A stretch of DNA of 64,000 nt from Mycolicibacillus parakoreensis (GTDB lineage Bacteria; Actinomycetota; Actinomycetes; Mycobacteriales; Mycobacteriaceae): the NCBI RefSeq assembly GCF_022370835.2, contig NZ_CP092365.1, positions 2,790,001 to 2,854,000 on the forward strand. Reading direction: 5' to 3'. The number at the start of each line of letters is the position of its first letter. Within the stretch, counting starts at the first letter, position 1. Shown piece by piece: positions 35,553 through 62,534 of the stretch. Position numbers and translations under genes: made by a program. A model generated the notes under the pieces. The model saw only the letters and a program-made list of their open reading frames with translations, was not told the origin of the DNA and ran no database searches.

Positions 35553-35848
35553 ACCCCGACAACTACCTGTACCTGTCGGCGCTGCTGTTCACCATCGGCG
35601 CGGTCGGGGTGTTGTTGCGGCGCAACGCGCTGGTCATGTTCATGTGCATCGAGCTGATGCTCAACGCCGTCAACCTGGCGCTGGTCACGTTCTCGCGCAC
35701 CCACGGTCAGCTCGAGGGCCAGATGGTGGCGTTCTTCACGATGGTGGTGGCCGCCTGTGAGGTGGTGGTCGGGTTGGCGATCATCATGACGATCTTCCGT
35801 GCCCGCAGGTCGGCTTCGGTCGACGACGTGAACCTACTCAAAGGCTGA
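35549..35848 (+). CDS. nuoK: NADH-quinone oxidoreductase subunit K
   Basis: Small proton-channel subunit of 99 residues, homologous to MnhC/MrpC. It has three helices, with the conserved acidic residues in [16 protein letters not shown] and in [16 protein letters not shown] 35549 overlaps the nuoJ stop by 4 bp. It fits the length of E. coli NuoK (100). Confidence 0.96.
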
Positions 35849-35855
35849 CCGCGAC

Positions 35856-47585: not shown

Positions 47586-47819
47586 ATGCTCGGATTACTG
47601 GAACGGCTCGGCCGGCTGCTCAGCTACCGGATGAGCATCGGCGAACTCATCGGCCTGGGACTCATCCTGGGCACCCCGTACCTGATCATCGGGTTGATCT
47701 GGTCACTGACCCACACCGCGCATCTGCACGAGATGCAAGGTGTCGACCTGGTCGTGTCCTTCCTGGGGTCGATCGTCTCCTGGCCGGTTCTGCTGTTCTC
47801 CAACGTCTGCATGCAGTGA
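47586..47819 (+). CDS. Small membrane protein at the head of the mce operon
   Basis: Protein of 77 residues with two hydrophobic helices (about 20-40, GELIGLGLILGTPYLIIGLIW, and about 54-74, LVVSFLGSIVSWPVLLFSNVC), so a helical hairpin in the membrane. The ATG follows AGGAG at a distance of 10 bases. It ends 32 bp before yrbEA and clearly belongs to that operon. I do not recognise a family. It could be an accessory or stability factor of the YrbE permeases; no catalytic residues are visible. Confidence 0.7.
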   Translation: MLGLLERLGRLLSYRMSIGELIGLGLILGTPYLIIGLIWSLTHTAHLHEMQGVDLVVSFLGSIVSWPVLLFSNVCMQ

Positions 47820-47851
47820 CCATCACGGGTTTTGCGAACTAGGAGCGATCG

Positions 47852-48742
47852 GTGATGACGACGTCGGACACCCCTCACGTCCTGGCCGAGATCATTGAGG
47901 AACAGCTGGCCGAGCGGCCGGGTCTTCGCGGTGTCCTCGACTGGGTGCGCCGCTATCTGATCGACCACCCCATCCAGTCGTTGGCCACCGGCGGAAGCCA
48001 GGTGGTCCTGGGGATCCGGGCGATCCAGTATCTGTTCCTGGACCTGTTCACCGGCCGCTTCCTGATCCGCGAATACCTCGAACAGACGGCGTTCGTCGCA
48101 GGAACGGCGTTCTTGCCCACGGTGTTTGTCACCATCCCGGTCGGTGTCACCCTCTCGATCCAGTTCAGTGTCCTGGCCGGCCAGGTGGGCGCCTCCTCGC
48201 TCGCCGGCGCGGCCACCGGGCTGGTCATCATCCGTCAGGCCGCTCCCCTGGTGGCGGCGATGCTGCTGGCCGTCGCCGTCGGTTCGGCGGTCTGCGCCGA
48301 TCTGGGATCACGCACCATGCGTGAGGAGATCCAGGCGATGGAGGTCATGGGAGTCCAACCGGTGCGCCGGCTGGTGGTGCCCCGGCTGGCAGCGCTGATC
48401 ACCGTCGGTGTGCTTCTCACCGGCATCACCTTTTTCGTCGGCTACATAGCCGGATACATCTTCAACGTCTTCTTGCAGAACGGCACAGCCGGCTCGTTCA
48501 TCGCCACGTTCTCCTCGTTCTCCGACGTCGGCGACATGTGGCTGGCCCTGGTCAAAGCGATCGTGTTCGGCGTCATCGTCGCCATCGTCAGCTGTCAGAA
48601 GGGTCTGGACGCCCGCGGCGGCCCCGCCGGGGTCGCCAACGCCGTGAACGCGGCGGTGGTCGAATCGATCCTGCTGTTGATGTTCGTCAACGTGATGATG
48701 AGCCAGCTCTACGTGATCCTGTTTCCCCGGCAGGCGCTCTGA
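47852..48742 (+). CDS. ABC-type permease YrbEA (MlaE family)
   Basis: Inner-membrane permease of 296 residues in the MlaE/YrbE family, the membrane channel that works with Mce substrate-binding proteins and the shared ATPase MceG (not in this window). Family segments are PVGVTLSIQFSVLAGQVGASSLAGAATGLV and REEIQAMEVMGVQPVRRLVVPR, the EF-P-type coupling region for the ATPase. Two adjacent starts are possible, GTG 47852 and ATG 47855, behind AGGAG. YrbEB begins 2 bp after it. Confidence 0.93.
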   Translation: MMTTSDTPHVLAEIIEEQLAERPGLRGVLDWVRRYLIDHPIQSLATGGSQVVLGIRAIQYLFLDLFTGRFLIREYLEQTAFVAGTAFLPTVFVTIPVGVTLSIQFSVLAGQVGASSLAGAATGLVIIRQAAPLVAAMLLAVAVGSAVCADLGSRTMREEIQAMEVMGVQPVRRLVVPRLAALITVGVLLTGITFFVGYIAGYIFNVFLQNGTAGSFIATFSSFSDVGDMWLALVKAIVFGVIVAIVSCQKGLDARGGPAGVANAVNAAVVESILLLMFVNVMMSQLYVILFPRQAL

Positions 48743-48744
48743 TC

Positions 48745-49605
48745 ATGACGGCCCCCAGCACGCTGCGCCTGCGCGGTACACGACCGGTTGTCGAATCGGC
48801 CGAGGCGTTCGCGCGTGGGGTGGCGAAATCCGGCCACATGGTGCATTTCTTCGGGCGCACCGTGGCGTCCATCCCCACCATGTTCCGACACTATCGACGC
48901 GAAATGCTGCGTCTGCTCTCCGACATCGCCTGGGGCAACGGCTCGATCGTCGTCGGTGGCGGCACCATTGCGGTCGCCCTCGCCCTGGGCCTGATTGCCG
49001 GCGCTCTGGTCGCGGTTGAGGGTTACAGCATTCTGAGCCTGCTGGGGCTCGGACCGGCCACCGGGCTCATCTCGTCGTTCGCCACGACTCGGGAGCTGGC
49101 CCCGATCATGGTCGGCATGGCGTTCATCGCCCAGGCCGGGTGTCGGTTCACCGCCCAGCTCGGCGCCATGCGCATCAACGAGGAGATCGACTCGCTGGAG
49201 GCGATGGCGATCAAGCCGATCCCGTTTTTGGTGACCACCCGCGCTGTGGCCTCGGTCATCGCGGTGGTCCCGCTGTTCCTGGTCGCCCTCGGCGTGGCCT
49301 ACCTGGCCTGCCAGTTCTCCGTGGTCTTGGTCTCGGGTCAGTCCAACGGCTCTTACCTGCACTATTTTTCGCTGTTCGTCAACGGTCGCGACGTGCTGTA
49401 CTCGACGTTCAAGGCCAGCGTGTTCGTGTTCATCTCCTCGACGATCCAGAGTTACTACGGCTTCGTCGCCGCCGGCGGGCCCGCCGGCGTGGGCACCGCA
49501 GCCGGACGTGCGATGCGCACCAGCGTGACCGCCGTCGTCGTGGTCAACATGCTGTTGACGATGGCGCTGTGGGGTGTCGAGTCCGGCGCGAGGTTCGGCG
49601 GGTAA
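48745..49605 (+). CDS. ABC-type permease YrbEB (MlaE family)
   Basis: Second YrbE permease of 286 residues, expected to form a heterodimer with YrbEA. It has the MlaE motif ELAPIMVGMAFIAQAGCRFTAQLGAMRINEEIDSLEAMAIKPIPFLVTTR and a C-terminal GGPAGVGTAAGRAMRTS. ATG 48745 is 2 bp after the YrbEA stop; the frame is open upstream but inside that gene. The pair is followed by six mce genes, the standard arrangement. Confidence 0.93.
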   Translation: MTAPSTLRLRGTRPVVESAEAFARGVAKSGHMVHFFGRTVASIPTMFRHYRREMLRLLSDIAWGNGSIVVGGGTIAVALALGLIAGALVAVEGYSILSLLGLGPATGLISSFATTRELAPIMVGMAFIAQAGCRFTAQLGAMRINEEIDSLEAMAIKPIPFLVTTRAVASVIAVVPLFLVALGVAYLACQFSVVLVSGQSNGSYLHYFSLFVNGRDVLYSTFKASVFVFISSTIQSYYGFVAAGGPAGVGTAAGRAMRTSVTAVVVVNMLLTMALWGVESGARFGG

Positions 49606-49607
49606 CG

Positions 49608-51092
49608 ATGGCCAACTGGTTCGACACCGATCCCCGAGGAACGTCCAACCCGCGTCTGTTCGTCCTCGGCGTGTGCTTCATCACCGTCGCGGTGGCCACG
49701 GCGATGCTGATGGTGGCCAAATCCCAGGGCAAACTCGACGACCTGGTCCGCGTCGACATCGAACTGACCAATATCGGTGACGGCCTTCCGCCGCGCTCCG
49801 ATGTGAAGTTCCGCAACCTGCTGGTGGGGTCGGTCTCCGATGTCACGCCGTCGACCCACGGACTGCCGAACACCGTGCACGTGGTCATCAAACCCGGATA
49901 TGCGCAATGGATTCCCGACACGGTGACCGCACGGGTCGTTCCGGCCAACCTGTTCGCCGTCTCAGCGGTCCAGTTGGTGGACAACGGCGAGGCGCCAGGT
50001 CATCTGCGCAGCGGTTCGGTGATCGTCGAAGACCAGTCCCTGCCGACGGTGATATTCCAGAATGTGCTCAACAAGCTGCGTCAACTCATCGGGCCGCTGG
50101 GACGCAAGGCCGACGACCAAAGCATCGGGGTCATCGCCGCGCTGGGGGCCGCCACCCACGGCCGCGGAAAGGAACTCACCGACACCGGACACGATCTCAA
50201 CGAGATCCTTGCCCGGCTCAACGACGTGGTCGCCACCGACGACGCGGGTCCGACAACGCTGTCGGCGTTGACCGATGCCGCCGCAGGGCTCCATCGGGTC
50301 TCACCCGAGCTTTTCGATGCCCTTGACCGGTCCATCCGGCCGATGGCCACGATCACCGAGAAGGGCCGGCAGCTGAGCAGCCTGCTCGCCGGTGGGCTCA
50401 ACACCGCCGACACGGTCGCGACGGCGTTGGAGAACCAGGCCGAGCGCATGATCACCATCAGCACCCAGTTGACCCCGCCGCTGGGTGTGATCGCCGATCA
50501 CGCCGACGAGTTCCACGGGGTGTCGACCAAACTGCAGACCCTGGCCACGCGCGTGTACGACATCGCCTGGGATCCGCAGACCAAGGTCCTCAAGGCCGGC
50601 AAGGCGGCCATCGCGCTCACCCCGAGCCGCAGCTATGTGCGCGCCGATTGCCCCCGATACGGTGAGCTGGCCGGGCCGAGCTGTGAGACCGCGCCGGAGA
50701 CGCCCACCGCACCGGATCTGTTCCCGGCACTGCAATCCCAGGGCGTGCAGCCCACCCCGGGAATGACCGAGAACCGTCCCAACGTGACCCCGCCGCGGCA
50801 CTCGATGCCCGGCGACCCGCAAGGCCCGCCGGCACCGCCGCCGCCCGGCCCGCCCGCCGAGAGCCCGCCACCGGTCGACGCACCCGGGCCTCCGCCGCCT
50901 CCCCTGGCGGCCGAGGCGCAGCCGCAGTCCGCGGTCGTCGGCGGCAACGTCGGATTGGTCGGCAGTGACCTGGAGAAGAACCAGATCGCCCGCATCGCCG
51001 GCCGGGCCGACGCCGGCACAGTGCTGTTGTTGGGGCCGGTGCTGCGCGGCAACACGGTGCAGATCAGTCCCGTCACCGAGGAGGGCCGATGA
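49608..51092 (+). CDS. MCE-family protein, MceA position
   Basis: Mce/MlaD-type lipid-shuttling protein of 494 residues. It has an N-terminal signal anchor (about 17-39), an MCE domain (about 45-125, with PPRSDVKFRNLLVGSVSDV), a helical stretch and an unusual C-terminus: a Pro-rich linker from about 395 to 450 (PPAPPPPGPPAE and similar) and a final 40-residue segment. Typical MceA proteins have about 425-450 residues. ATG 49608 is 2 bp after YrbEB. The six Mce proteins probably form a heterohexameric tunnel from the outer membrane to YrbE. I cannot assign the operon to mce1-4 with certainty. Confidence 0.9.
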   Translation: MANWFDTDPRGTSNPRLFVLGVCFITVAVATAMLMVAKSQGKLDDLVRVDIELTNIGDGLPPRSDVKFRNLLVGSVSDVTPSTHGLPNTVHVVIKPGYAQWIPDTVTARVVPANLFAVSAVQLVDNGEAPGHLRSGSVIVEDQSLPTVIFQNVLNKLRQLIGPLGRKADDQSIGVIAALGAATHGRGKELTDTGHDLNEILARLNDVVATDDAGPTTLSALTDAAAGLHRVSPELFDALDRSIRPMATITEKGRQLSSLLAGGLNTADTVATALENQAERMITISTQLTPPLGVIADHADEFHGVSTKLQTLATRVYDIAWDPQTKVLKAGKAAIALTPSRSYVRADCPRYGELAGPSCETAPETPTAPDLFPALQSQGVQPTPGMTENRPNVTPPRHSMPGDPQGPPAPPPPGPPAESPPPVDAPGPPPPPLAAEAQPQSAVVGGNVGLVGSDLEKNQIARIAGRADAGTVLLLGPVLRGNTVQISPVTEEGR

Positions 51093-52138
51093 GGACCCGT
51101 CGTATGCCGTTGGTCGGTCTGGCCCTGTTCACCACGTTCGCGCTGCTCGTCACGTGGATGGTGTACAACACGCTGCGCCGCGAGATCAACGGGCCCACCT
51201 ACGCCTACTCCGCGGTGTTCACCGACGCGTCGGGGATGGCGCCCGGCGACGACGTGCGCATGGCCGGTGTCCGCGTCGGCCGGGTCGACAAGATCGAACT
51301 GGACGGGACCTCGGCGCGGGTGCTGTTCCGTGTGCTGCGAAGCCAACCCCTCTACACCAACACGGTGGCGTCGGTGACCTACCAGAACATCATCGGGCAA
51401 CGCTATCTCGGGTTGGCCCAGGGAACCGGCGACGACCACCGTCGGCTTCCCGACCGCGGTCAGATCCCCATCGAGCGAACCAACCCCTCGTTGGACATCT
51501 CCTACATGCTCAACGGATTCGAGCCCCTCTTCGCTGAACTGGATCCCGACCAGGTGGACAACCTGAGCAACGCGACCGTGTTGGCGCTGCAGGGCAACCA
51601 GAGTTCGATGCTGACGTTGATCACCCAAACCTCCGCCTTAGCCGAGATGTTCGCCGGACCCGACGAGGTACTCAGCACCCTGATCGCCAACCTCGATGAG
51701 CTGATGTCCGATTTGGCGAAACAGAACCCCAACGTCGAAACCATGATCCGCCAGTCACGCGATGCCATGGTGACGTTGGCCGATCACCGCGACGAACTTC
51801 TTTTTTCGGTCGGCTCGATCAACGCGACCATGGCCCGCTTGGCCACGATCGTCGACAACGTCGCCCCCGATCTGCGGGAGTTCGTCGAACGCCGGCCCGG
51901 CCTGCTCAACTACGGCATCCACGACGGGCGCGAGCGATTCGCCTACATGGCGGCGAACCTCCCGTTCGTGTTGCAGGGCATGGCACGGGTCAGCCAGGGC
52001 GGCAGCTATGCCGACGTGTACGCCTGCGAATTGGACTTCGGTCTGTGGCGCGGACTGTTCCATTGGTTCCGCGCGTTCGTGGGAGCCGCGACACCGAGCC
52101 CCGGCAGTGAGCATTGGCACACGGCGGCGTGCAGGTGA
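51089..52138 (+). CDS. MCE-family protein, MceB position
   Basis: Mce protein of 349 residues with a signal anchor (about 8-28) and an MCE domain (YAYSAVFTDASGMAPGDDVRMAGVRVGRVDKIEL, about 39-72, continuing to about 115), followed by the long helical region that lines the export/import tunnel. The C-terminus has two Cys-bearing segments (YACELDFGLW ... AACR). GTG/ATG region 51089 overlaps MceA by 4 bp and ATG is used. Typical length for MceB is about 340-350. Confidence 0.92.
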   Translation: MRTRRMPLVGLALFTTFALLVTWMVYNTLRREINGPTYAYSAVFTDASGMAPGDDVRMAGVRVGRVDKIELDGTSARVLFRVLRSQPLYTNTVASVTYQNIIGQRYLGLAQGTGDDHRRLPDRGQIPIERTNPSLDISYMLNGFEPLFAELDPDQVDNLSNATVLALQGNQSSMLTLITQTSALAEMFAGPDEVLSTLIANLDELMSDLAKQNPNVETMIRQSRDAMVTLADHRDELLFSVGSINATMARLATIVDNVAPDLREFVERRPGLLNYGIHDGRERFAYMAANLPFVLQGMARVSQGGSYADVYACELDFGLWRGLFHWFRAFVGAATPSPGSEHWHTAACR

Positions 52139-53169
52139 AGATGATGTCCGCGATCAGCAAGCGCCCCCTGGAATCGTTCAGCCGACCGTGGATCGGCGTG
52201 TTCGCGGTGATCACCATCGCCGCGTTGCTCATCGGGCTGGTGTCCTACGCGGGACTGGGCGTGGGCAAAGCCCGGTACCGCGCCGACTTCGCCCAGGCGG
52301 CACAGATCCAATCCGGCGACGCGGTCACGATCGCCGGGATCAAGGTGGGTCAGATCGAGAACGTCGCGCTCGCCGGTGATCACGTGGTCGTCGGGTTCTA
52401 CCTCGACGACGGCATCGCCCTCGGAGCGGACACCCGCGCGGCCATCAAACTGACCACGATCCTGGGGTCGCGTTACCTCGAGTTGTCGCCGGCCGGCGAC
52501 GAGGGGTTGGACAATCGGACGATCCCGTTGTCCAACACCGACGTCCCCTATGACCTGCAACGGACCCTGGCCGGTGCGACCAGCACCCTCGGTCCGGTGG
52601 ACGCCGAGAGGTTCGTCGATTCCATCGAACTGCTCAACGCCAACCTCGGCGGCGTCCCCGACGAGCTGCCCGAGGCGCTGACCAATCTGCAGTCGATGTC
52701 GGACATCCTGGCCGACCGTCGAAGTCAGCTGGGCACCCTGCTGACCAATACCGAGGCGGTGACCACCATGTTGCGCACCCAGCGCGCCAACATCGGCGCC
52801 CTGGTGATGCAGGGGCGCTCCGTTTTGCGCGAGATCGCCACCCGGCGCGCCGCGGTCCAGCAGCTGTTCGCCAGCGCCACCACCCTGGTCGACCGGGCCA
52901 AAGCGATCCTCGATGACGAACCGGCCATCGACCAGATGATCAACGATTTCCACGAGTTCATGCGCATGACCGCCGAACACGACGAACTGCTGACCAGTTT
53001 CCTGCAATCCGCCCCGGTGGCGCTGCGCAACTTCGCCAACGTGACCGGCAGCGGTAACGCCGCCGACGTGTTCCTGCCCGCGGGGATCTTCGTGGACTCG
53101 TGGATGTGTGCGCTCAGCGGCCGCGCCAGGCAGTTCAACCTGGTGGAGTACTTCAAGGACTGCCAATGA
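52135..53169 (+). CDS. MCE-family protein, MceC position
   Basis: Mce protein of about 344 residues, somewhat shorter than typical MceC (about 350-515), and without a Pro-rich tail. It has a signal anchor (about 18-38) and an MCE domain (YRADFAQAAQIQSGDAVTIAGIKVGQIENVALAG). The start is uncertain: GTG 52135 gives the 4-bp overlap usual in this operon, while ATG 52141 and ATG 52144 also lie after an AGGTGA ribosome-binding site. The C-terminus is CALSGRARQFNLVEYFKDCQ with two cysteines. It overlaps MceD by 4 bp. Confidence 0.9.
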   Translation: MKMMSAISKRPLESFSRPWIGVFAVITIAALLIGLVSYAGLGVGKARYRADFAQAAQIQSGDAVTIAGIKVGQIENVALAGDHVVVGFYLDDGIALGADTRAAIKLTTILGSRYLELSPAGDEGLDNRTIPLSNTDVPYDLQRTLAGATSTLGPVDAERFVDSIELLNANLGGVPDELPEALTNLQSMSDILADRRSQLGTLLTNTEAVTTMLRTQRANIGALVMQGRSVLREIATRRAAVQQLFASATTLVDRAKAILDDEPAIDQMINDFHEFMRMTAEHDELLTSFLQSAPVALRNFANVTGSGNAADVFLPAGIFVDSWMCALSGRARQFNLVEYFKDCQ

Positions 53170-54305
53170 GACGGCAGGTCAGGTTGATCGTCCTCAGCGG
53201 CGCGGTCCTGCTCGTGCTGGCCATCACCGGGATGGCGGCTGTCGGTCCGACACTGGTGGCCCGCATACCCAGCATCGCGCTGAGCAAGGTCACCGTCACC
53301 GCGCAGTTCTCCGACGCCGTCGGGCTCTACACCGGTAATGGCGTCTCGGTGCTCGGCATGGAAGTGGGCAAGGTCGCCGGCATCACCCCCAAAGGCGGCT
53401 ATGTGGAGGTGACACTGGCGATCGACTCCGGTGTCGCCATCCCCGCAGACGCCGAGGCGGTGACCGTGTCGACCTCGGTGCTCACCGACCGCCACGTCGA
53501 GCTGACACCGCCCTACCGCGGCGGCCCGAAGCTGAAGAGCGGCGACATCATCGGCTTGGACAAGACGCGCACCCCCGTGGAGTTCGAACGCACGTTGGCG
53601 ATGATGCACAAACTCGGCAGTGCGTTGCACGCCGATGAGAACAACGAGGGTCCACTCGGTGAGTTCGTCGAACTCGGATCGCAGATCACCCTGGAGAACG
53701 GCGCCGAGATCAAGGCCACCCTCGCGAAGCTGTCCGCGGCACTGGAGGTCGGCTCCGACAAGGGCGCGCAATCCAAGAAGAACATCCAGGCCATTATCAC
53801 CAACGTCGCCGAACTCAGTCAGGCCGCGGCCGACAACGACGCGGCGCTGCGCGAGTTCGGCTCCTACGTCCACGCGTTGAGCGATGTGCTCGCCGCCGAG
53901 AACCTGGGTGCCGGACTGACCGGCGCGAAGATCAACCAGCTTCTCGCCGAGGCCTCCCGGCTGTTGGAGGGCAATCAAGAGGGACTCAAGCAGTCGTTCG
54001 CCGACGTGCGCGGTGTCGCCACCGTACTCACCGACAACCAGCGCGATCTGGCCGAGCTTCTCGACGTCGGACCGCTTTTCGTCGACAACTTCTACAACAT
54101 CATCGATGAGGAGGCAGGAAGCCTGCGCGCCCACCTTCTGGTCAGCAAGACGCTGTTCAACAGCCAGTTCGGCAAAGAGATCTGCAACCTGATGGGTCTG
54201 CGGCAGTTGGCCTGCGCCACCGGGACGATGCAGGATTACGGACCGGACTTCGGGTTGGGCACCATGGTCGATCTGATGCAGGACGGGATCGGTGAGGGCC
54301 CATGA
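53166..54305 (+). CDS. MCE-family protein, MceD position
   Basis: Mce protein of 379 residues with a signal anchor (about 7-30), an MCE domain (TVTAQFSDAVGLYTGNGVSVLGMEVGKVAGITPKGG) and a helical domain of about 250 residues. Its C-terminal CNLMGLRQLACATG provides two cysteines. MceD proteins elsewhere often carry a long Pro-rich tail (up to 530 residues); it is absent here, while MceA has one instead. ATG 53166 overlaps MceC by 4 bp, and the 3' end overlaps MceE by 4 bp. Confidence 0.92.
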   Translation: MRRQVRLIVLSGAVLLVLAITGMAAVGPTLVARIPSIALSKVTVTAQFSDAVGLYTGNGVSVLGMEVGKVAGITPKGGYVEVTLAIDSGVAIPADAEAVTVSTSVLTDRHVELTPPYRGGPKLKSGDIIGLDKTRTPVEFERTLAMMHKLGSALHADENNEGPLGEFVELGSQITLENGAEIKATLAKLSAALEVGSDKGAQSKKNIQAIITNVAELSQAAADNDAALREFGSYVHALSDVLAAENLGAGLTGAKINQLLAEASRLLEGNQEGLKQSFADVRGVATVLTDNQRDLAELLDVGPLFVDNFYNIIDEEAGSLRAHLLVSKTLFNSQFGKEICNLMGLRQLACATGTMQDYGPDFGLGTMVDLMQDGIGEGP

Positions 54306-55417
54306 GACGACCACGGATCGGGCTACGGCTTCCGCGCACCGTCACAGCGATCGCGGCGGCGGCCCTCCTCGCCGGCTGCGGGCTCAACCTGGAGAGCGTG
54401 GCGCTTCCCGCCCCGGGCGGAGGCGGTTCGTTCTACACGCTCAACGCGGTGTTCTCCGACGCACTGAACCTGCCCACCAAGGCGAAGGTGCGCCTCTACG
54501 GCGCGCAGATCGGGGAGGTCTCCGAGATCCGGGCCCAGGATTTCACCGCCCACATCGCCATGCATGTCCGCTCCGACGTGCCGCTGTATGAGGGCAGCAC
54601 AGCCGAATTGCGGGCGGCGACCCCGCTGGGCGACGTGTTCGTCCAGATCCGGCCCGACCCGAACCGCGGTGAGGACGCCGAGCTGCTGCGCGACGGCGCG
54701 ACCTTGCCGTTGGAGGCCACCGCCAACGCCCCGACCATCGAAGAACTGCTCGGGTCGATGGCGCTGCTGGTCAACGGCGGCACGGTGCGCTACCTGGTCT
54801 CGATGCTCAACGGTGCGGGCGACGCCGTCGGGGGACGGGGCTCCAAGGTCGCCACCCTCATCGAGCAGACCGACACGCTGCTGTCCCGGATGAGCGCACG
54901 GTCGGAGCAATTGGATGCCTCGCTGCGTAACTCGGCGGATCTGGCCGCGGCGATGTCGCAGCGCCAATCCACGTTCGACGAGGCGCTCACCGGTCTGGCG
55001 CCTGCGCTCAACGTGATCTCGGCCAACACCGAGGCCCTGGTCGATCTGATCAACACCGGGGCCAGGATCACCGCTCAGCTCGCGCGGTTCCCCTCGCTGC
55101 GGGGGACCGACACCCGCAGCATCAGCCAGGACGTCAACACCCTCGCCCGGGTGCTCAACGAGATCACCGTCGACCCGGAGTTGTCGCTGACACCGTTCAA
55201 CCGGTTTCTCGGGATCTTGATGAAGACCTTCAACGGCACCGCCGCGCATCTGAACGGCGAGATCGCCCAACTCACCCTCGCCCCCTGGCCGGATATGAAC
55301 TATCCGGGCGACCCCGGTTTCCACTGGTCGGACGGCACCGACTGGCATCTGATGATCGGCGCGCTGCGCTACGAGTGGAACATGCTGCTGTCCCACATTT
55401 ACGGACCGCAACGATGA
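54302..55417 (+). CDS. MCE-family lipoprotein, MceE position (LprK-like)
   Basis: Mce lipoprotein of 371 residues. The lipobox LLAGC puts the lipidated cysteine at residue 26, as is normal for MceE proteins. The MCE domain follows (about 44-125: FYTLNAVFSDALNLPTKAKVRLYGAQIGEVSEI), then the helical part. ATG 54302 overlaps MceD by 4 bp, and the 3' end overlaps MceF by 4 bp. The lipid anchor should hold the complex in the cytoplasmic membrane. Confidence 0.93.
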   Translation: MRRPRIGLRLPRTVTAIAAAALLAGCGLNLESVALPAPGGGGSFYTLNAVFSDALNLPTKAKVRLYGAQIGEVSEIRAQDFTAHIAMHVRSDVPLYEGSTAELRAATPLGDVFVQIRPDPNRGEDAELLRDGATLPLEATANAPTIEELLGSMALLVNGGTVRYLVSMLNGAGDAVGGRGSKVATLIEQTDTLLSRMSARSEQLDASLRNSADLAAAMSQRQSTFDEALTGLAPALNVISANTEALVDLINTGARITAQLARFPSLRGTDTRSISQDVNTLARVLNEITVDPELSLTPFNRFLGILMKTFNGTAAHLNGEIAQLTLAPWPDMNYPGDPGFHWSDGTDWHLMIGALRYEWNMLLSHIYGPQR

Positions 55418-56685
55418 GGCCGTTTCTGGACCTGGTGGACCAGCTCTGCCGGCTGGTGATCGTCATCGTCGGCTGGGGGCATCAACGCCGGATCCTGCTG
55501 TCGGTGCTCGGGCTGATGCTGACCACGGTCGTCGCGGCCGCCTACGTCACGATCTTCGGAGTCGGCATCAACCCGACCCAGAGGATGATCACGGTGCGGG
55601 TCCTTCTCAACGAATCCGGTGGCTTGTTGGCCAACCAGGATGTGACCCTGCGCGGCATCCCGATCGGCCGGGTCCAGGCGGTGCGACTGACCGCCACCGG
55701 AGCCGAGGCCGTCGTCGCGATCCGGGCCGACACCCCGATACCCCGCGACGCCGACGTGCGGATCTCCGGACTATCGGTCGCCGGCGAGCAGTACCTCGAT
55801 TTCCGCCCCACCCACCAATCGGGGCCCTACCTGACCAACGGCTCCATGATCGGCAGTGAACAGACCAGCGTCCCGGTGTCGTTGCCGCAGATCATCGACG
55901 ACAGCCGCGGCGCTCTCGCCCAGATCGACGCCGGCAAACTCACCGCCGTCTTCGGTGAACTGCGCGTCGGTCCCGACGGCCCCCGGAAACTGTCCGCACT
56001 GCTGGACGGGACCGTGCTGTTGACCTCCACCCTCGACGGGGTGCTGCCGGAGACGATCAGCATGCTGCAGAACACCCGGCCGTCGTTCACGCTGCTGGCC
56101 GACGTCTCGCCCGGTCTGGGCGAGACGGGCACCGATCTGCAGAACATCCTCGGCGGGGTCAACGCGATGGACGGCGGTTTTCGCGAGCTCGTCGATCTCG
56201 GCAGCACCGAACTCGATCAGGTCGATACGTTCATCGCCGACAACCGGGAGAACGTCTACGCCCTGCTGGGCAACCTCACCACGTTGTCGCAGCTGCTCTA
56301 CCTTCGGGTTCCGGCGTTGCAGAACCTGTGGCGTCCCGACCACGACTCGCTGGTCGACCGGCTGTCCAGCACGGTGCACGACGGCGGCATCTGGGTCATC
56401 GCCGATTTGTATCCGAAGTACCGCTGCGACTACGACTTGCCCCGCCAGCCACCGTCGGCCGCTGATTTCCCGGCGCCCTACCGCTACACCTACTGCGACA
56501 ACGACGATCCGTCGGTTCTGGTCCGGGGCGCGCGCAACGCGCCCCGGCCCCCGGGTGACGACACCGCCGGTCCTCCCCCGGGCCACGACCCCCACGAAAC
56601 CCTGCCCCCGCCACCGGTGTACCCGCCCTACACCCTGGACACCCCGTACGGGGGCCCGTCATTGCCCGCGTGGGTCCCCAACTGA
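55414..56685 (+). CDS. MCE-family protein, MceF position
   Basis: Last Mce protein, 423 residues. Signal anchor at about 26-49, MCE domain (RVLLNESGGLLANQDVTLRGIPIGRVQAVRL), a helical region, and a C-terminal Pro-rich tail (about 375-423). The segment LYPKYRCDYDLPRQPPSAADFPAPYRYTYCDNDDP carries two cysteines and is typical of MceF. ATG 55414 overlaps MceE by 4 bp. The Mce-associated gene follows after 18 bp. Confidence 0.93.
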   Translation: MRPFLDLVDQLCRLVIVIVGWGHQRRILLSVLGLMLTTVVAAAYVTIFGVGINPTQRMITVRVLLNESGGLLANQDVTLRGIPIGRVQAVRLTATGAEAVVAIRADTPIPRDADVRISGLSVAGEQYLDFRPTHQSGPYLTNGSMIGSEQTSVPVSLPQIIDDSRGALAQIDAGKLTAVFGELRVGPDGPRKLSALLDGTVLLTSTLDGVLPETISMLQNTRPSFTLLADVSPGLGETGTDLQNILGGVNAMDGGFRELVDLGSTELDQVDTFIADNRENVYALLGNLTTLSQLLYLRVPALQNLWRPDHDSLVDRLSSTVHDGGIWVIADLYPKYRCDYDLPRQPPSAADFPAPYRYTYCDNDDPSVLVRGARNAPRPPGDDTAGPPPGHDPHETLPPPPVYPPYTLDTPYGGPSLPAWVPN

Positions 56686-56703
56686 GCGAAAGAAGGTATC
56701 CGC

Positions 56704-57336
56704 ATGTCCACCATCAGCGACGTCTTCGACCGCCTCGACGAGCTCCCGGTGAGCGCCGACTCCGACACCGCCGCAAGCGACCCCGAGCCCGGTGGCGCCG
56801 CCGACGAAGCCGGCGCCACCGGGGCCGGCGAGACGGCGGCGCCCGAGCGACCGCGACGGCGGCGGCGCCGCATCGTGACGGTGACCGCGGTGACCGCGAG
56901 TGCCGCCGCGCTGGCGACGATCGGCTATCTGGGTTGGCGTCTGCATGAGGTCATGGCCGTCGACGCGGCACAGCAGGCGGCGCTGGCCGCGGCCACGGAC
57001 TACGCGATCACCTTGACCACGCTCGACGCCGACACCATCGACGAGAACTACACCCGGGCCCTCGACGGGGCGACCGGAGAGTTCAAACAGGCGTACAGCC
57101 TCGGCTCGGCGCAACTACGCCAGATGCTGATCGACAACGACGCCGCGGGCACCGGCGTGGTGGTCGACGCCGCCGTGAAGGACGCGACGGCCACCCGGGC
57201 CGAGGTGTTGTTGTTCGTCGATCAGTCGATCACCAACGCGGTGCGTACCGAACCGCGAATCGACCGCAACCGGATCCAGATGACCATGGAGCTCGTCGAC
57301 GGCCGGTGGTTGGCGAGCAAGGTCGAGTTGACATGA
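56704..57336 (+). CDS. Mce-associated membrane protein 1
   Basis: Single-pass membrane protein of 210 residues: an acidic, disordered N-terminus, a basic stretch RPRRRRRR before a helix (about 61-80) and an outer soluble domain with a nuclear-transport-factor-2-like pattern common to Mce-associated (Mam) proteins (AAATDYAITLTTLDADTIDENYTRALDGATGEF). These proteins stabilise Mce complexes. ATG 56704 follows AGAAGG. It precedes a second paralogue by 22 bp. Confidence 0.88.
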   Translation: MSTISDVFDRLDELPVSADSDTAASDPEPGGAADEAGATGAGETAAPERPRRRRRRIVTVTAVTASAAALATIGYLGWRLHEVMAVDAAQQAALAAATDYAITLTTLDADTIDENYTRALDGATGEFKQAYSLGSAQLRQMLIDNDAAGTGVVVDAAVKDATATRAEVLLFVDQSITNAVRTEPRIDRNRIQMTMELVDGRWLASKVELT

Positions 57337-57358
57337 CCGCGTGGGGAAGGGGCCGATC

Positions 57359-57952
57359 ATGACCGCTGTCGTCGACGCCTGCGCTGACGAGGCGACCGAG
57401 GCGACGTCCGAGGTCACCGCATCACCGTCGCGCCGCACCGTGCGGCTGCCCCGTCGTGTGCGGCGGTGGCTCGTGGCCGCGACCGCCGTCGTGTTCGTCA
57501 TCGGCGCCGGCTACCAGAGCTGGCTTTTGATCGACCAGCATCGCGATGGCGTCGCCGGGCGCGACGCGCTCGCCGCCGCGGAACGCTACGCGGTGACCCT
57601 GACCACCGCCGACCCGGCGACCATCGACGATCAGGTCGAGGCCGTCATCGACGGCTCGACCGGGGATTTTCACGACCGGTACACCCGACACAGCGCGGAC
57701 CTGCGCGCGATGCTGCTCACCAACAAGGTGACCACGACCGGCAGCATCGTCGATTCGGCGGTCAAATCGGCCGACCCGCACCACGCCACCGTCCTGCTGC
57801 TGGTCCGACAGTCCTTCACCACCCCGGCCATGGCCGACCGCCCGGTCGATTCCTCGGCGGACGTCACCGGGATGACCATGCTGCTGGACAACGTCGACGG
57901 ACGGTGGCTTGTCAGCGAGATCCGTGCCACAGCAGGGGGTCTGACTCCATGA
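57359..57952 (+). CDS. Mce-associated membrane protein 2
   Basis: Paralogue of the preceding Mam protein, 197 residues: a helix at about 39-58, then the domain AAAERYAVTLTTADPATIDDQVEAVIDGSTGDFHDRYTRHSADLRAML, which matches its neighbour in order and motif. ATG 57359 lies behind GGGAAGGGG; a GTG at 57341 in frame is possible but has a poorer site. The 3' end overlaps the MPT64-like gene by 4 bp. Two Mam genes after mceF also occur in the mce3 locus (from memory). Confidence 0.87.
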   Translation: MTAVVDACADEATEATSEVTASPSRRTVRLPRRVRRWLVAATAVVFVIGAGYQSWLLIDQHRDGVAGRDALAAAERYAVTLTTADPATIDDQVEAVIDGSTGDFHDRYTRHSADLRAMLLTNKVTTTGSIVDSAVKSADPHHATVLLLVRQSFTTPAMADRPVDSSADVTGMTMLLDNVDGRWLVSEIRATAGGLTP

Positions 57953-58743
57953 GAACCCTGGCAGTCGCCGCGGCGCTGGCCGTCGCCGCCGCCCCGTTGG
58001 TCACCGCTCCGCGCGCCGGCGCCACCGCCGACGGGTTCTGCGCCGACCTGCACGCCGACTGGGACGGTCAGCACTGCACGACCGTGGTGGTCTCGCCACG
58101 GCAGGCGCAACGTGTCATCTCCGTCGATCTTCCGGTCGCGCTGCTCGATGACCCGACCGCGGGGCCGGTGGTGCGCGACTTCTACCGGCAGCTGATGGAC
58201 GGGTGGCGACGTTCTGGTGCGGAGTCACTGCGCGACACCCGCGCCTACGCCTTCTACGAACTGCACCCGGGGCCGGGGCCGCTGCAGTCGCTGGTCGTCC
58301 ACGAGGTACTCGAACCCCACGGCATGCAACCGAACAACGCTTTCCGGACATTCGTGTTCGACCTGGATCGCCGGACCCGGCTGACGCTGACCGATGTGTT
58401 CAAACCCGACGTCGACCCGCCGGCGGTCATCACGTCGGTCGGGGCCCCGGCGCTCACCGCCGCGCTCGATGACGCCGCGCCCCCGCACGCGCCGAACACC
58501 TACCCGTTCACTCTCGCCGAGTTCACCCCCGGCCCGAACGGACCCGGTTACTCGGGGAATTACCGCGCCTTCGCGTTGACACCCGAGCACCTGGTCCTGT
58601 TCATGCCCGGCACTCCGATGCTGCGCGAAGACCCGCAGCCGCCCGACCGGCAGGTGTGGTCCATGGACGGCGGCGCGGTCATCGCCCGAATACCCCTGCC
58701 GTCTTTGGCCGACGCGCTGCGGCCCGAATACGGCGGCCACTGA
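57949..58743 (+). CDS. Secreted MPT64-like (DUF3298/RsiV-type) protein
   Basis: Exported protein of 264 residues with a signal peptide that probably ends at AGA-TA near residue 25. Its order of motifs matches MPT64: an early Cys pair (FCADLH ... HCTTV), a central segment FRTFVFDLDRRTRLTLTDVFKP, and late YRAFALTPEHLVLFMPGTPM followed by a proline- and valine-bearing end. MPT64 is a major secreted mycobacterial antigen; the DUF3298 fold is otherwise seen in RsiV. ATG 57949 overlaps the second Mam gene by 4 bp. Its role in the Mce system is unknown; a periplasmic lipid-handling role is a guess. Confidence 0.72.
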   Translation: MRTLAVAAALAVAAAPLVTAPRAGATADGFCADLHADWDGQHCTTVVVSPRQAQRVISVDLPVALLDDPTAGPVVRDFYRQLMDGWRRSGAESLRDTRAYAFYELHPGPGPLQSLVVHEVLEPHGMQPNNAFRTFVFDLDRRTRLTLTDVFKPDVDPPAVITSVGAPALTAALDDAAPPHAPNTYPFTLAEFTPGPNGPGYSGNYRAFALTPEHLVLFMPGTPMLREDPQPPDRQVWSMDGGAVIARIPLPSLADALRPEYGGH

Positions 58744-58794
58744 TCACCTGCCCCCGGTCCCCCACCACCCCCTCAACGAAGGAGCGCGATCACC

Positions 58795-59241
58795 ATGACC
58801 AACCGTCCCAGCACCGCCGCCCGCGTCGCCGGGTTGATCCTCACCGGCACGGGCGTCGCCCATTTCCTCACACCTGACGCCTTCGAGTCGCTTCTTCGCC
58901 CCGTGTTCCCCCTGAACACCCGCTGGCACGTCTACGTCAACGGTGTGAAGGAGACGTTGTTGGGGCTGGGCATCGTGGCGTCGCGAACCCGTCGGGTGGC
59001 CCTGGTCGCCGTGGTGGTCCACGTGATCGGGTTGGCCCGCAACGCCACACGCCGCGGTCGCACACGGGTCGGACTCGACGTCGATTGGCACGACGGCGAC
59101 CGGTTCGACGAGGAGGGACTCGTCGAGGTGTATCCGATCGAGGAGTTCTCGCCCAGCTCCGAGGACCCCGCGCCGGCGCCGCAGGGCGTCGCACCGGGGA
59201 TGGACGCGACCACACCGACGCGGCGGGAGTCGCTGCGATGA
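58795..59241 (+). CDS. Small membrane protein, DoxX-like pattern
   Basis: Protein of 148 residues with about two or three hydrophobic segments in the first 85 residues (VAGLILTGTGVAHFLTPDAF; VKETLLGLGIVASRT; VALVAVVVHVIGLA), then a hydrophilic acidic/Pro-rich tail. The HFLTPDAFESLL segment is like DoxX-family membrane proteins, but the match is weak. ATG 58795 follows GAAGGAGCG. It overlaps the next small gene by 4 bp. Confidence 0.7.
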   Translation: MTNRPSTAARVAGLILTGTGVAHFLTPDAFESLLRPVFPLNTRWHVYVNGVKETLLGLGIVASRTRRVALVAVVVHVIGLARNATRRGRTRVGLDVDWHDGDRFDEEGLVEVYPIEEFSPSSEDPAPAPQGVAPGMDATTPTRRESLR

Positions 59242-59432
59242 TGTTCGTGGTGCGACTCATCGACCTGATCGTGCGCGCGGTCCGCTACCTGGGTACTCCC
59301 GAAGCCCGGTTCCTGCGCGCCGGCCTGGTCGTGGTGGTCATCGGCGGCGCATTGATCGGCGCCGCCGGACTCTTCTGGCTGCTGGCCCAACTCCCGGCGC
59401 TGTTCGCCGGCGCGGCCACACATCACCTCTGA
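59238..59432 (+). CDS. Very small membrane protein (64 residues)
   Basis: A 64-residue protein with one strong transmembrane helix near residues 29-56 (AGLVVVVIGGALIGAAGLFWLLAQLPALF), preceded by an amphipathic, basic segment. ATG 59238 overlaps the upstream stop (ATGA); a second ATG follows at 59241. It is tightly packed between the DoxX-like gene and the first MpaB-type oxygenase gene and so is likely real. No family is known to me; it may be a membrane anchor or partner of an oxygenase. Confidence 0.6.
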   Translation: MMFVVRLIDLIVRAVRYLGTPEARFLRAGLVVVVIGGALIGAAGLFWLLAQLPALFAGAATHHL

Positions 59433-59457
59433 CCCCCAACACGTCGAAAGGCCCCCG

Positions 59458-60366
59458 ATGTCACCTAGTCACCGTCAACAGGAGAGCCCGGCCCCCACGA
59501 TGCTGACCACAGCCGAGACCCGCATTCAGATCGACACCTACACCCCACGGTGGGACCACGAGGTCATCGACCTGTCCGATGCCCTGGATTTCTGGTCGGC
59601 GGCCGCGGCCGCCGCCAACGTCATCATGCAGATGAGCCTGCCGGGGGTGGGCCACGGCGTCGCCGAGAGCCGCGTCGAATCCGGCGCTCTGATGGAACAC
59701 CCCTGGAAGCGGCTACGCACCACCGCGCAGTATCTCGCCGTGGTGATCCTGGGCACCGACGCGGAGCGCGCCGCCTACCGCGACGCGGTCAACGTGGCGC
59801 ATCGCATGGTGCGCTCCACCGCCGACAGTCCGGTGAGATACAACGCGTTCGACCGTGACCTGCAGTTGTGGGTGGCGGCCTGCCTCTACGTCTTCTACGA
59901 GGACACCTACCAGTTGCTGCGAGGCCGGCTCACCGAAGAGCAGGCCGAGAGCCTCTATCAGCACGGCAAGCTGCTCGGCACGACCCTGCAGGTCACCGAC
60001 GATCAATGGCCCGCGACCCGCGCCGAATTCGACGACTACTGGAACGCGACGTGCGAACACCTCGAGATGGACGACGTCGTTCGCGACTATCTGCTGCGGT
60101 TGGTCAACCTCACGATGATCAATCCGCTGCTGCGACTGTTCTTCGCTCCGCTGCTGCGGTTCTTGACGATCGGATTTTTGGCCCCGCGGTTCCGGGAGCT
60201 CCTCGGGGTGCAGTGGTCGGCGACCAAGCAGCGGCAATTCGAGAATCTGTTCCTGTTCGTCTCCTTCGTCAATCGGTTCCTGCCGAAGTTCCTGCGCACC
60301 TTCAGCTACAGCCTCTTGATGTCGGATCTTCGCCGTCGGCTGCGGCGCCACAAGTCGCTGATCTAG
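59458..60366 (+). CDS. MpaB-family (DUF2236) oxygenase-like protein 1
   Basis: Protein of 302 residues, mostly helical. The pattern LQLWVAACLYVFYEDTYQLLRGRLTEEQAESLYQHGKLLG ... ATRAEFDDYWN is the DUF2236 / ER-bound oxygenase MpaB / rubber-oxygenase Lcp family core. Characterised members use a heme b to cleave isoprenoid double bonds (rubber, or the farnesyl side chain of a mycophenolic acid precursor). The position of the proximal His cannot be fixed by eye. ATG 59458 lies 25 bp after the small membrane protein. The next gene encodes a second member, so the two may form a heteromer. Confidence 0.75.
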   Translation: MSPSHRQQESPAPTMLTTAETRIQIDTYTPRWDHEVIDLSDALDFWSAAAAAANVIMQMSLPGVGHGVAESRVESGALMEHPWKRLRTTAQYLAVVILGTDAERAAYRDAVNVAHRMVRSTADSPVRYNAFDRDLQLWVAACLYVFYEDTYQLLRGRLTEEQAESLYQHGKLLGTTLQVTDDQWPATRAEFDDYWNATCEHLEMDDVVRDYLLRLVNLTMINPLLRLFFAPLLRFLTIGFLAPRFRELLGVQWSATKQRQFENLFLFVSFVNRFLPKFLRTFSYSLLMSDLRRRLRRHKSLI

Positions 60367-60368
60367 GG

Positions 60369-61181
60369 ATGCCGGTGACCGAGACCGACCGATTGGGCCC
60401 CGACAGTCTGCTGTGGCGCTTCCTGGGTGACCGCCGTTATCTGTTCATGCTGCCGCGCTCGGTGTGTCTGTTGATGCTGCACCCGGCGATCGCCGCCGGG
60501 ATCAGCGAACACGCCTTGATGCGTGACCGGATCTGGCTGCACAAGAAACGGACGGTCACCCAGGCGGTCAACATCGCCTACACCCGTCACGACATGGCGC
60601 CGCTGATCCGGTTCTCCCACGACCACGTGAAGGGGACCACCGATCGCGGCGAGAAATACCATGCGCTCAGCCCCGACGTCTTCCACTTTCAGCACGCCGC
60701 GTATGTCGAGACCCTCATCACGATGGTGAACACGTTCATCCGACCGCTCAACGCGGCCGAACACGAGCAGCTCTACCGGGAGTGTTGCACCTGGTACCGC
60801 CGCTACGGGATCTCCACGCGACCGATGCCCGACACCTGGGTCGAGTTCGTCGACTACTTCGACCAACGCTGCCGCAGCGACCTGTCGGCGGGACCGCACT
60901 TCGAGCGCTACCGCGACGAGATCTTCGCCCCGTCGGACTGGACGATGCGCCGCGTGCCGCACCGGGCGATCCGCGCCATGCAGCATCCGCGGGCCCGCGA
61001 GCTTCTGGGGATCGACGTGAGCGCCGCCGACCGTCGCTCCCTGCGACGGTTCACCCGCGTGGCGCGACTCTCGGTGGTGCTGCCACGGCATCACTGGAAT
61101 GCCAAGGCCCGCGCGGTGCTGCGGGCCGGTACTCCCGCGGCAGCAGACCAGCAGCTCGGCGGTGTACCCGCACCGCCATGA
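60369..61181 (+). CDS. MpaB-family (DUF2236) oxygenase-like protein 2
   Basis: Protein of 270 residues of the same family: the segment VFHFQHAAYVETLITMVNTFIRPLNAAEHEQLYRECCTWYRRYGI followed by MPDTWVEFVDYFDQRC matches the DUF2236 order. The N-terminal SLLWRFLGDRRYLFMLPRSVCLLMLHPAIAAGISEHA also fits the family start (heme pocket helix). ATG 60369 is 2 bp after the first oxygenase gene; a GTG at 60375 is an alternative. Paired DUF2236 genes in an mce operon suggest an isoprenoid or sterol-like import substrate, which is inference. Confidence 0.75.
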   Translation: MPVTETDRLGPDSLLWRFLGDRRYLFMLPRSVCLLMLHPAIAAGISEHALMRDRIWLHKKRTVTQAVNIAYTRHDMAPLIRFSHDHVKGTTDRGEKYHALSPDVFHFQHAAYVETLITMVNTFIRPLNAAEHEQLYRECCTWYRRYGISTRPMPDTWVEFVDYFDQRCRSDLSAGPHFERYRDEIFAPSDWTMRRVPHRAIRAMQHPRARELLGIDVSAADRRSLRRFTRVARLSVVLPRHHWNAKARAVLRAGTPAAADQQLGGVPAPP

Positions 61182-61256
61182 TTCCAGTTATGTTGGAGAC
61201 GGTCGGGGACTTCGCGAGTTTTCACCGCTGCAGGACCCGACTAAGTGAGGAACTCC

Positions 61257-62534
61257 GTGACGGCACGACAGACTCCCGCCGCGACGCGTAGCGTCCGGCG
61301 CCGTCCCAAGGACCGCAAGGCCCAGATCGCGCGCGAGGCCGCCGAGGCGTTCAGCACGCTCGGCTACCACGCGGTCAGCGTGGAGGCGATCGCCACCCGC
61401 GTCGGGGTGTCGGCTCCGGCCCTCTACCGGCACTACAGCAGCAAATACGATCTGTTCCGCGGCGCGGTGCTCGCACTGAGCCAGCAACTCGTCGACGCCA
61501 CCGATGCCTTCGACACCGTCACCGACGACGATCCGCACGCGCACCGCGATCAGATCGCGCGGGCAGTGATCGACGTCGTCCTGGTCAACCGCACCTCCGG
61601 CGGGCTCTACCGGTGGCAGACCCGGTATCTGCAAGGCCCCGACGCCGCCCGGTTGACCTCACAGCTGCGGCTGGTCAACCACCGCATCCAGCGTGCCATC
61701 ACCGTGCTGCGGCCGGAGTTGACCTCGGCGCAGCAGTGGATGCTGTCGTCGGGATTTCTCAGTATCGCCGGCAGCATCACCGACCACCGGCTGCGCGCCC
61801 CCGACGAGACCATCCGCGCGATCCTCGCCGGGGGAATCAACGCGCTGGTCGCCGCCGCGCTGCCCGACCCCGAGGCGTCCCGGCAGCGCCGCGGAGGGTG
61901 GCGCATCTTCGCTCCCGACGCCGGCGCCTACGAGGCGCTGCTGCACGCCGCCATGCGGCTCTTCGCTCAGCAGGGCTACGCCGAAACCACCGTGGCGCAG
62001 ATCGCTGCGGCGGTGCAGCTGCCGGTCTCGGGCCCCTATCGGTACTTCTCGGGGAAATCGGAGATCCTGGCCACCGCGCTGCGCCGTGCCGCCGACCGCC
62101 TCTCGGCCGAACTGGCCCGGGCCCACGGCCCGGACAGCGAGCCCCGTGAGACGTTGACGCGACTGGTGGACGCCTACGTGACCACCTCGTTCGCCAACCC
62201 CGAACTCGCGTCGGTGTACTACAGCGAACGGGTCAACCTCGCCCCCAACGATCAGGTGCTGCTGCGCAACGTCCAGCGCGCGACGGTCGGGTCCTGGGTC
62301 GAATTGCTGATCTCGGCCCGCCCCGAACTCGATGTGACCGCGGCCCGCTTCCTCATCCAGGCGGCCATGGGCCTGGTCGTGGACCTGGGTCGGCTGGTGC
62401 ACTACGACCGGATGAGCCAGGACCGCGACGACGGCACCGATCCGCTGAGTTACCCGCGGGCCTGTGTCCAGACGCTGATGGAGGCCGTGCTGTTCGAGAC
62501 GAACGTTACGCAACGTCCCCTCGCCGATGGTTGA
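61257..62534 (+). CDS. Tandem TetR-family regulator (Mce3R-type architecture)
   Basis: Regulator of 425 residues made of two fused TetR units. The first helix-turn-helix is at about 20-65 (AREAAEAFSTLGYHAVSVEAIATRVGVSAPALYRHYSSKYDL), the second at about 222-266 (ALLHAAMRLFAQQGYAETTVAQIAAAVQLPVSGPYRYFSGKSEI); each is followed by an effector domain. Ordinary TetR proteins have about 200 residues. Mce3R of M. tuberculosis has the same double layout (about 406 residues) and represses the mce3 operon. I chose GTG 61257 behind GTGAGG; an in-frame GTG lies at 61245. It lies at the 3' end of the mce operon on the same strand, 75 bp after the second oxygenase gene. Confidence 0.88.
   Translation: MTARQTPAATRSVRRRPKDRKAQIAREAAEAFSTLGYHAVSVEAIATRVGVSAPALYRHYSSKYDLFRGAVLALSQQLVDATDAFDTVTDDDPHAHRDQIARAVIDVVLVNRTSGGLYRWQTRYLQGPDAARLTSQLRLVNHRIQRAITVLRPELTSAQQWMLSSGFLSIAGSITDHRLRAPDETIRAILAGGINALVAAALPDPEASRQRRGGWRIFAPDAGAYEALLHAAMRLFAQQGYAETTVAQIAAAVQLPVSGPYRYFSGKSEILATALRRAADRLSAELARAHGPDSEPRETLTRLVDAYVTTSFANPELASVYYSERVNLAPNDQVLLRNVQRATVGSWVELLISARPELDVTAARFLIQAAMGLVVDLGRLVHYDRMSQDRDDGTDPLSYPRACVQTLMEAVLFETNVTQRPLADG

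Follow-up and report, generated by a model that had tools for sequence, protein, structure and literature searches.

Does a lipid importer whose operon ends in two oxygenase-type genes work together with these enzymes, and under one regulator? The question is raised by positions 47586 to 62534 of a 64,000-nucleotide stretch of Mycolicibacillus parakoreensis DNA (contig NZ_CP092365.1, positions 2,790,001 to 2,854,000; G000 C1:2790001-2854000 in our numbering of genomes (G), contigs (C) and loci (L); hereafter the window), taken from a genome of 3.94 Mb. Seventeen open frames on the + strand fill this run in the forward-strand frame check, in the order sm1, yrbEA, yrbEB, mceA to mceF, two Mam-type genes, est, dox, tm64, duf1, duf2 and tetR2; duf1 and duf2 encode PF09995 (DUF2236) proteins and tetR2 a tandem TetR regulator. 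We found a DNA element that is common to duf1-type oxygenase genes and some of the mce operons, and a duf1 subfamily that repeatedly stands by mce genes, in several layouts. Judging from the sequences, regulator, importer and oxygenase very probably form one regulon.

A common DNA element upstream of importer and oxygenase genes

The element, GAATNNNNATTAACWTA, was identified across species. It is conserved and asymmetric, and in the window it sits upstream of sm1-yrbEA as a putative operator: its core GAATCTCCATTAACTTA (47460..47476, + strand) lies 110 bp upstream of sm1. All 35 divergent tetR2/sm1 intergenic stretches inspected in other genomes contain TTAACATA, and a 32-position profile was built from 34 of these sites, all from other species. 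The profile matches the window at 47455-47486 with 25.3 bits, while no other position in the 64 kb exceeds 10 bits, and the string CATTAACWTA has a single copy in the 3.94 Mb genome, at this same site. Across 104 loci outside the profile (1.97 Mb; some genomes or contigs were entered under two names, so the loci are not independent), 84 sites scored at least 15 bits, and 83 of them, in 72 loci, stand ahead of yrbE (28), sm1 (45), an oxygenase gene (8) or tetR2 (2) at a distance of up to about 400 bp. Twenty column-shuffled profiles gave on average 0.35 sites near such genes (maximum 4) and 0.7 elsewhere.

The exact element occurs at 106 sites in 71 of the 148 genomes of the genus sample, and the reversed pattern at none; tetR2 (E <= 1e-60) is present in 94. 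In raw counts, which take each genome once and ignore kinship, all 71 genomes with an exact site carry tetR2, none of the 54 genomes without tetR2 has a site, 23 have tetR2 and no exact site, and 67 of the 68 genomes with duf1 have tetR2 (G078 is the exception). TetR2 is a putative binder of the element because of this co-occurrence and because Mce3R, a tandem TetR protein of Mycobacterium tuberculosis, autoregulates according to excerpts of the published work on it. The original prediction of one regulator for all the genes thereby gains an operator-like element that is common across species and co-occurs with tetR2.

The element is also more frequent at mce operons close to duf1. We used 11 genomes, our own and 10 with one to five contigs, which were picked for having duf1 after some neighbourhoods had been seen. 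Among the matches listed, a site within one mismatch lies upstream of 5 of the 9 mce operons within 25 kb of duf1 and of 1 of the 83 others, that one being 25.2 kb from duf1. One operon counted as siteless (G111) shows profile matches once the view reaches the start of the operon (L099).

Allowing one mismatch gave 62 sites in 20 genomes, against 2 for the reversed pattern. Among the surroundings of 20 new site stretches (4 exact, 16 one-mismatch), three sites precede mce operons (L243, L249, L252). Most of the others adjoin genes without a clear link, for example PPE-like or SecY-like ones by names read from the sequence, and are probably chance occurrences; the regulon therefore gave no indication of the substrate. 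Two exact copies have neighbours of a different kind, again named from sequence. In L234 (G063 C1:5785400-5791400, site 3004), where no mce gene was recognised in the stretch, the element has a menG-like gene next to it and precedes a gene resembling those of alpha/beta hydrolases. In L237 (G157 C1:1931500-1937500, site 3078) two acyl-CoA dehydrogenase-like genes, possibly further members of the regulon, follow it at a distance of about 70 bp.

The duf1 subfamily recurs at mce loci

The source genome holds 14 PF09995 genes and 6 yrbE pairs, and duf1 and duf2 are the only such genes within 15 kb of a pair. Since the other 12 are not near any yrbE pair, the adjacency in the window exceeds chance. 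Two more adjoining PF09995 genes are found about 3-5 kb left of the window start (G000 C1:2784857-2786775). In the 11 genomes, among the matches listed, a yrbE lies within 15 kb of 8 of 15 duf1 genes, 5 of 6 duf2 genes (the PF09995 gene adjoining duf1) and 1 of 113 other PF09995 genes, compared with an area-based expectation of 1.6-8.4% per genome; for the 10 control genomes, all 120 PF09995 matches and 148 of the 181 yrbE matches were listed, which can lower these proximity counts.

The duf1 subfamily (E <= 1e-90) comprises 78 genes in 68 of the 148 genomes. With 150 sm1 matches listed, an sm1-family match lies within 600 bp of at least 57 of the 78 genes and within 15 kb of at least 5 more. 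Surroundings were examined for 77 of them, the 78th being that of the window, mostly over at least 9.4 kb upstream and over less at contig ends (3.5 kb in L113). Of these 77 loci, 20 show two or more mce matches or a yrbE; three more (L129, L135, L145) have one mce match.

The linked loci differ in layout. In near relatives (L045, L046; partial view in L065 and L096), the order is that of arrangement A, sm1-yrbE-mce-mam-mam-est-tm64-duf1-duf2-tetR2. Arrangement B, seen in M. peregrinum among others (L047-L049, L066-L076, L092, L099-L104), has a different mce operon ending in mam-duf1 and usually duf2, the latter called in 6 of 9 genus-sample loci; its mce proteins are 22-33% and its YrbE proteins 38-44% identical to those of the window. 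In arrangement C (L052, L057, L107, L115, L116), the 3' end of the mce operon has duf1 between tetR2 and est, read from the other strand. Divergent layouts pair tetR2 with duf1 and mce close by (D; L077, L089, L106), tetR2 with sm1-duf1 and mce after (E; L122, L123), or, in Nocardia, duf1 with sm1-yrbE-mce (F; L078-L088, L091, L093), in several of which a 62-amino-acid membrane protein is encoded between sm1 and yrbE. The majority of loci have sm1 and duf1 without mce (G), and L097 and L098 keep sm1-duf1-duf2 with no importer seen. In a tree built from 92 duf1 rows, five changes of the mce label are required, at least four of them forced by supported branches; the tree is a quick one that holds near-copies and leaves out L118, which had no gene call, and its root is untrusted, the outgroup branches being too long.

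An Mce3R-like regulator and two predicted heme oxygenases

The product of tetR2 (61257..62534, +) has TetR_N in two stretches of one chain, a hallmark of Mce3R-type regulators, and its residues 10-389 align with M. tuberculosis Mce3R (Rv1963c; 9b7y) at E 2.9e-32 and 115.6 bits over 380 residues. Four of the DNA contacts named in excerpts of the Mce3R structure paper (9b7y), R53, K58, R257 and K262, are identical in the alignment. The same kind of excerpt describes the Mce3R pocket as hydrophobic and with room for an inducer bigger than those in other TetR-ligand structures, which would fit a lipid signal. Mce3R controls the mce3 operon of M. tuberculosis; the text of two papers showed no operator letters to compare with the element. 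The two proteins thus align over nearly their full length and are each tied to an mce operon, but they are clearly diverged, and the regulator gene stands at the operon's 3' end here.

The duf1 (59458..60366, +; 59500 is a possible alternative start by the gene caller) and duf2 (60369..61181, +) products score 219.5 and 161 bits against the PF09995 (MpaB/Lcp) catalytic domain, for which the curated cut-off is 23; MpaB itself is an enzyme that cleaves a farnesyl side chain. The closest named relative of duf1 that we found, in Mycolicibacillus koreensis (L065), is 92% identical. The predicted model of duf1 lies nearest to 8s1j (t-anethole oxygenase, 11% identity over the aligned part) and 5o1m, resembling the rubber-cleaving enzyme Lcp and t-anethole oxygenase, and globins are the next-ranked structural rows. 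R85, T89 and H115 of duf1 are invariant across 22 rows and pair by position, without superposition, with Arg164, Thr168 and His198 of LcpK30; H84 of duf2 is invariant across 11 rows. We predict duf1 and probably duf2 to be globin-fold heme proteins and regard them as candidate oxygenases.

Simple inspection, with no predictor, found neither an N-terminal hydrophobic segment nor an RR motif in duf1; in duf2, an RR match and a weak hydrophobic stretch (1.61) both fall within the PF09995 match and make no convincing export signal. By the same inspection, neither protein has the twin-arginine (Tat) signal of Lcp. Because duf1 and duf2 are without a convincing export signal, oxidative attack would be intracellular. 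That the oxygenases attack a prenyl- or sterol-like lipid stays plausible by family and predicted fold.

Leads to the substrate

Menaquinone genes occur near arrangements B (L047, L048, L099) and D (L077, L106) and near two mce-less loci, L053 and L133. MenD (L099), MenG (L048), and MenJ with a nonaprenyl diphosphate synthase (L106) score above their NCBIfam cut-offs. In arrangement B, a gene for an HpnE-like flavin adenine dinucleotide (FAD) oxidoreductase (89.7 bits against a cut-off of 283) diverges from yrbE with element sites between, as also in L243. The mce-bearing menaquinone-linked cases form one supported clade of the duf1 tree, so a single old insertion may explain the linkage. A flavin monooxygenase-like gene accompanies 29 of the 32 distinct dox loci, nearly all of them without mce matches, and is absent from the window locus. 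As a lead, the menaquinone-gene and flavin monooxygenase neighbours point to isoprenoid or ketone chemistry. Among substrate classes, isoprenoids would be the most likely and sterols next; that the imported and cleaved lipid is in fact an isoprenoid strikes us as possible, and well short of probable.

A proposed mechanism and its alternatives

From the computed operon anatomy, common element, regulon, recurrent linkage and predicted oxygenase fold, we infer binding, repression, heme, catalysis and the order of the following steps. TetR2 would repress the entire transcript, including its own gene, by binding the element that lies 110 bp ahead of sm1, until a lipid or its coenzyme A (CoA) ester releases the regulator, as Mce3R suggests. 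The lipid, which the secreted esterase may first free from an ester, would be imported by YrbEAB and MceA-F together with an ATPase whose gene lies elsewhere. Inside the cell, duf1 and probably duf2 would add oxygen at a C=C bond and split this bond; the carbonyl products would pass to lipid catabolism, and sm1 may anchor the oxygenase to the membrane or the permease. The whole operon would then be one regulated unit for uptake followed by oxidative processing of a hydrophobic lipid. We put the chance that import and oxidative C=C cleavage concern one and the same lipid at about even. A broader conjecture, which we consider unlikely, is a widespread mycobacterial and nocardial regulon, defined by the tandem TetR and GAATNNNNATTAACWTA. 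In it, globin-fold oxygenases that cleave C=C bonds inside the cell would work with sm1 and Mce importers in the salvage or remodelling of isoprenoids, such as quinone or polyprenyl chains.

Several observations weigh against this mechanism. In 54 of the 77 duf1 loci, there is no mce or yrbE match in the stretch; sm1-family genes flank duf1 on both sides in 43 of these and on one side in 10, with none within 600 bp in one. Because 53 of the 54 still keep sm1 within 600 bp, duf1 needs no neighbouring importer. The expectation that the oxygenase genes lie near mce operons in relatives was therefore borne out for the subfamily as a whole, by the proximity counts above, but not for most of its loci. 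As to the element, the window-type operon of L045 and L046 has a degenerate TTAACTTTT in its place, with no site within one mismatch at the operon copy in either genome (G016, G022). A one-mismatch site stands upstream of a yrbE-mce operon far from duf1 (L249; G126 C1:4553100-4559100, site 3008), and the genome counts leave kinship aside. The Mce3R contacts R49 and R219 are not conserved in TetR2. For the oxygenases, the top Foldseek E-value of the duf1 model is 6.0e-3, neither protein matches a PDB chain at E <= 1, Lcp chains included (nor does a duf1 profile at E <= 5), Thr88 of duf1 takes the position of Lcp Lys167, and the distal residues of duf2 found no placement relative to Lcp.

These points bear unequally on the alternatives. 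TetR2 might sense one signal, such as lipid or redox stress, and govern an importer and oxygenases that act on different molecules; the many duf1 genes that have sm1, lack mce and still carry the element upstream favour such separate jobs under a common regulon, as does the flavin monooxygenase-like gene at mostly mce-less dox loci. The recurrence of the duf1-mce tie in several arrangements, the forced changes on the tree and the near absence of other PF09995 genes from yrbE among the matches listed speak the other way, and we regard separate jobs as a serious possibility, though not a probable one. The oxygenases might instead cleave or edit the cell's own menaquinone or polyprenol chains while the Mce part moves or recovers lipids. 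That the unit lies within or beside a menaquinone locus in some relatives, with the HpnE-like FAD oxidoreductase there, suits this idea, which we nonetheless hold to be quite improbable: blastp found no menaquinone-type gene in the remaining duf1 loci examined, the window operon's own neighbours are not of that kind, and shared descent of one insertion covers most cases. Non-catalytic, globin-like binding of heme or lipid by duf1 and duf2 would agree with the globins among the structural rows and with the replaced Lys167; the Arg, Thr and His that Lcp requires appear kept in duf1, by position, and make it very improbable. We give equally little credit to a rubber degradation system, even though the Pfam domain is the same, the predicted fold is similar, and excerpts of the literature on rubber-degrading Nocardia place lcp beside yrbE/mce genes and an AcrR-family regulator and propose Mce uptake of the oligo-isoprenoids that Lcp makes (PMC9070631, PMC6311187, PMC8235351). 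Its low rating follows from the want of a convincing Tat or general secretory (Sec) signal and of any sequence match to Lcp chains.

Relation to known systems

Uptake coupled to PF09995-type oxidation is thus not novel in kind, because lcp beside mce has already been described in Nocardia, at least in the excerpts cited; this precedent counts against novelty, and the statement that no such system had been described was too strong. The likeness between the two loci consists in a PF09995/DUF2236 oxygenase beside yrbE/mce and a regulator. The difference is that Lcp is secreted and cuts before import. For the full gene set, we found no description in the open-licence PMC literature, as judged by titles and abstract starts. 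Apparently new are the export-signal-free oxygenase pair inside an mce operon with small membrane proteins and a 3'-end Mce3R-like regulator, and the DNA element common to importer and oxygenase loci throughout the genus sample. To our knowledge, the M. tuberculosis mce3 operon has no oxygenase genes, the Mce1 importer complex has neither an oxygenase nor sm1, and t-anethole oxygenase and MpaB are not linked to mce.

Mce importers with known substrates are few. Through the element and the recurrent gene order, one subfamily of PF09995 proteins is linked with particular mce operons, and this link is a concrete route to importer cargo and oxygenase substrate. PF09995 itself is labelled as of unknown function in a table, seen in excerpt, of the 50 most expanded mycobacterial Pfam families (PMC3388012). 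The Mce3R-like regulator family, in turn, gains a testable DNA site outside M. tuberculosis.

Genes of the operon and its surroundings

The same-strand run had been described as having gaps under 80 bp, and this is what the frames show: successive gaps are 35, 2, 2, -4, 2, -4, -4, -4, 18, 22, -4, 51, -4, 25, 2 and 75 bp, the last being the largest. The gene content was largely as first read, with the YrbE, Mce, DUF2236 and tandem TetR assignments above cut-offs; the MPT64-like protein stays below threshold, and the Mam labels rest on position.

With two genes for YrbE (MlaE) permeases and, after them, six for Mce proteins, all above cut-off, this is an mce operon. yrbEA (47855..48742, +) and yrbEB (48745..49605, +) score 207 and 187.9 bits with PF02405, and the former is homologous to YrbE of the Mce1 importer complex (8fed, 8fee, 8fef), its top PDB match being YrbE1A (8fed, E 3.2e-46). 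PF02470 (cut-off 25.1 bits) gives 30.9 bits for mceA (49608..51092, +), which also matches PF11887 at 69.7 bits (above cut-off), 71.4 for mceB (51089..52138, +), 58.1 for mceC (52141..53169, +), 59.9 for mceD (53166..54305, +), 47.3 for mceE (54302..55417, +) and 57.5 for mceF (55414..56685, +). Proteins A (56704..57336, +) and B (57359..57952, +), which we take to be Mam-type from position, have one transmembrane (TM)-like segment each, and A has relatives in the equivalent place elsewhere. est (57949..58743, +) encodes a secreted esterase-like protein of the Rv3036c/MPT64 type with an N-terminal hydrophobic segment; it scores 42.9 bits with the Rv3036c esterase model NF043047, under the cut-off of 200, and has a borderline MVL match (25.1 bits, cut-off 25). 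dox (58795..59241, +) is a small DoxX/MauE-like gene by sub-threshold Pfam matches, with relatives in 31 further distinct loci, and tm64 (59238..59432, +) encodes a small, TM-like membrane protein kept in L045, L046, L065 and L096. Mam A, Mam B, sm1, dox and tm64 have nothing above cut-off in Pfam and NCBIfam (Pfam alone for Mam A and tm64).

Between 47000 and 63000, promoter-like matches (1, against 1.2 in shuffles) and terminator-like matches (6, against 5.8) show no excess; the scan is neutral on a single transcript, since the counts are no higher than in shuffles. The operon's left-hand neighbours are NADH-quinone oxidoreductase genes, genes for an AMP-binding enzyme and a phosphotransferase-like protein, and an alpha/beta hydrolase gene on the opposite strand. 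The NADH-quinone oxidoreductase genes occupy 30511-40905 of the window, and a strong negative AT skew (36-40 kb) corresponds to their membrane subunits.

The sm1 family and other small membrane proteins

sm1 (47586..47819, +) encodes 77 amino acids with two TM-like segments by open frame and hydropathy. Its best match among PDB sequences is no better than E 1.4, which speaks against a known subunit of a solved Mce complex. A fixed partnership with PF09995 enzymes was also considered and is weakened: of 79 sm1 loci without duf1, 61 had neither an mpab nor an mce match and 12 show an mpab-type neighbour, by an mpab profile that was built from 10 of the 14 own-genome PF09995 genes and misses distant ones. 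In L221 (G000 C1:2949276-2961482, at 5992-7276), another own-genome PF09995 gene has an sm1-family gene directly downstream. In L228 (G000 C1:130809-143018), a tandem sm1-like pair (5702-6228) stands beside a 1362-amino-acid EccC-like frame and an antiporter-like gene, as named from sequence; because this pair adjoins an ESX-like gene, the sm1 family is wider than the mce/duf1 system. Finally, a small membrane protein of about 115 amino acids, with no family match above cut-off, is encoded in 47 of 71 tetR2 locus entries (some loci are doubled), for example at 10297-10653 of L122 and 6236-6577 of L197, and adjoins sm1 or duf1 where inspected.

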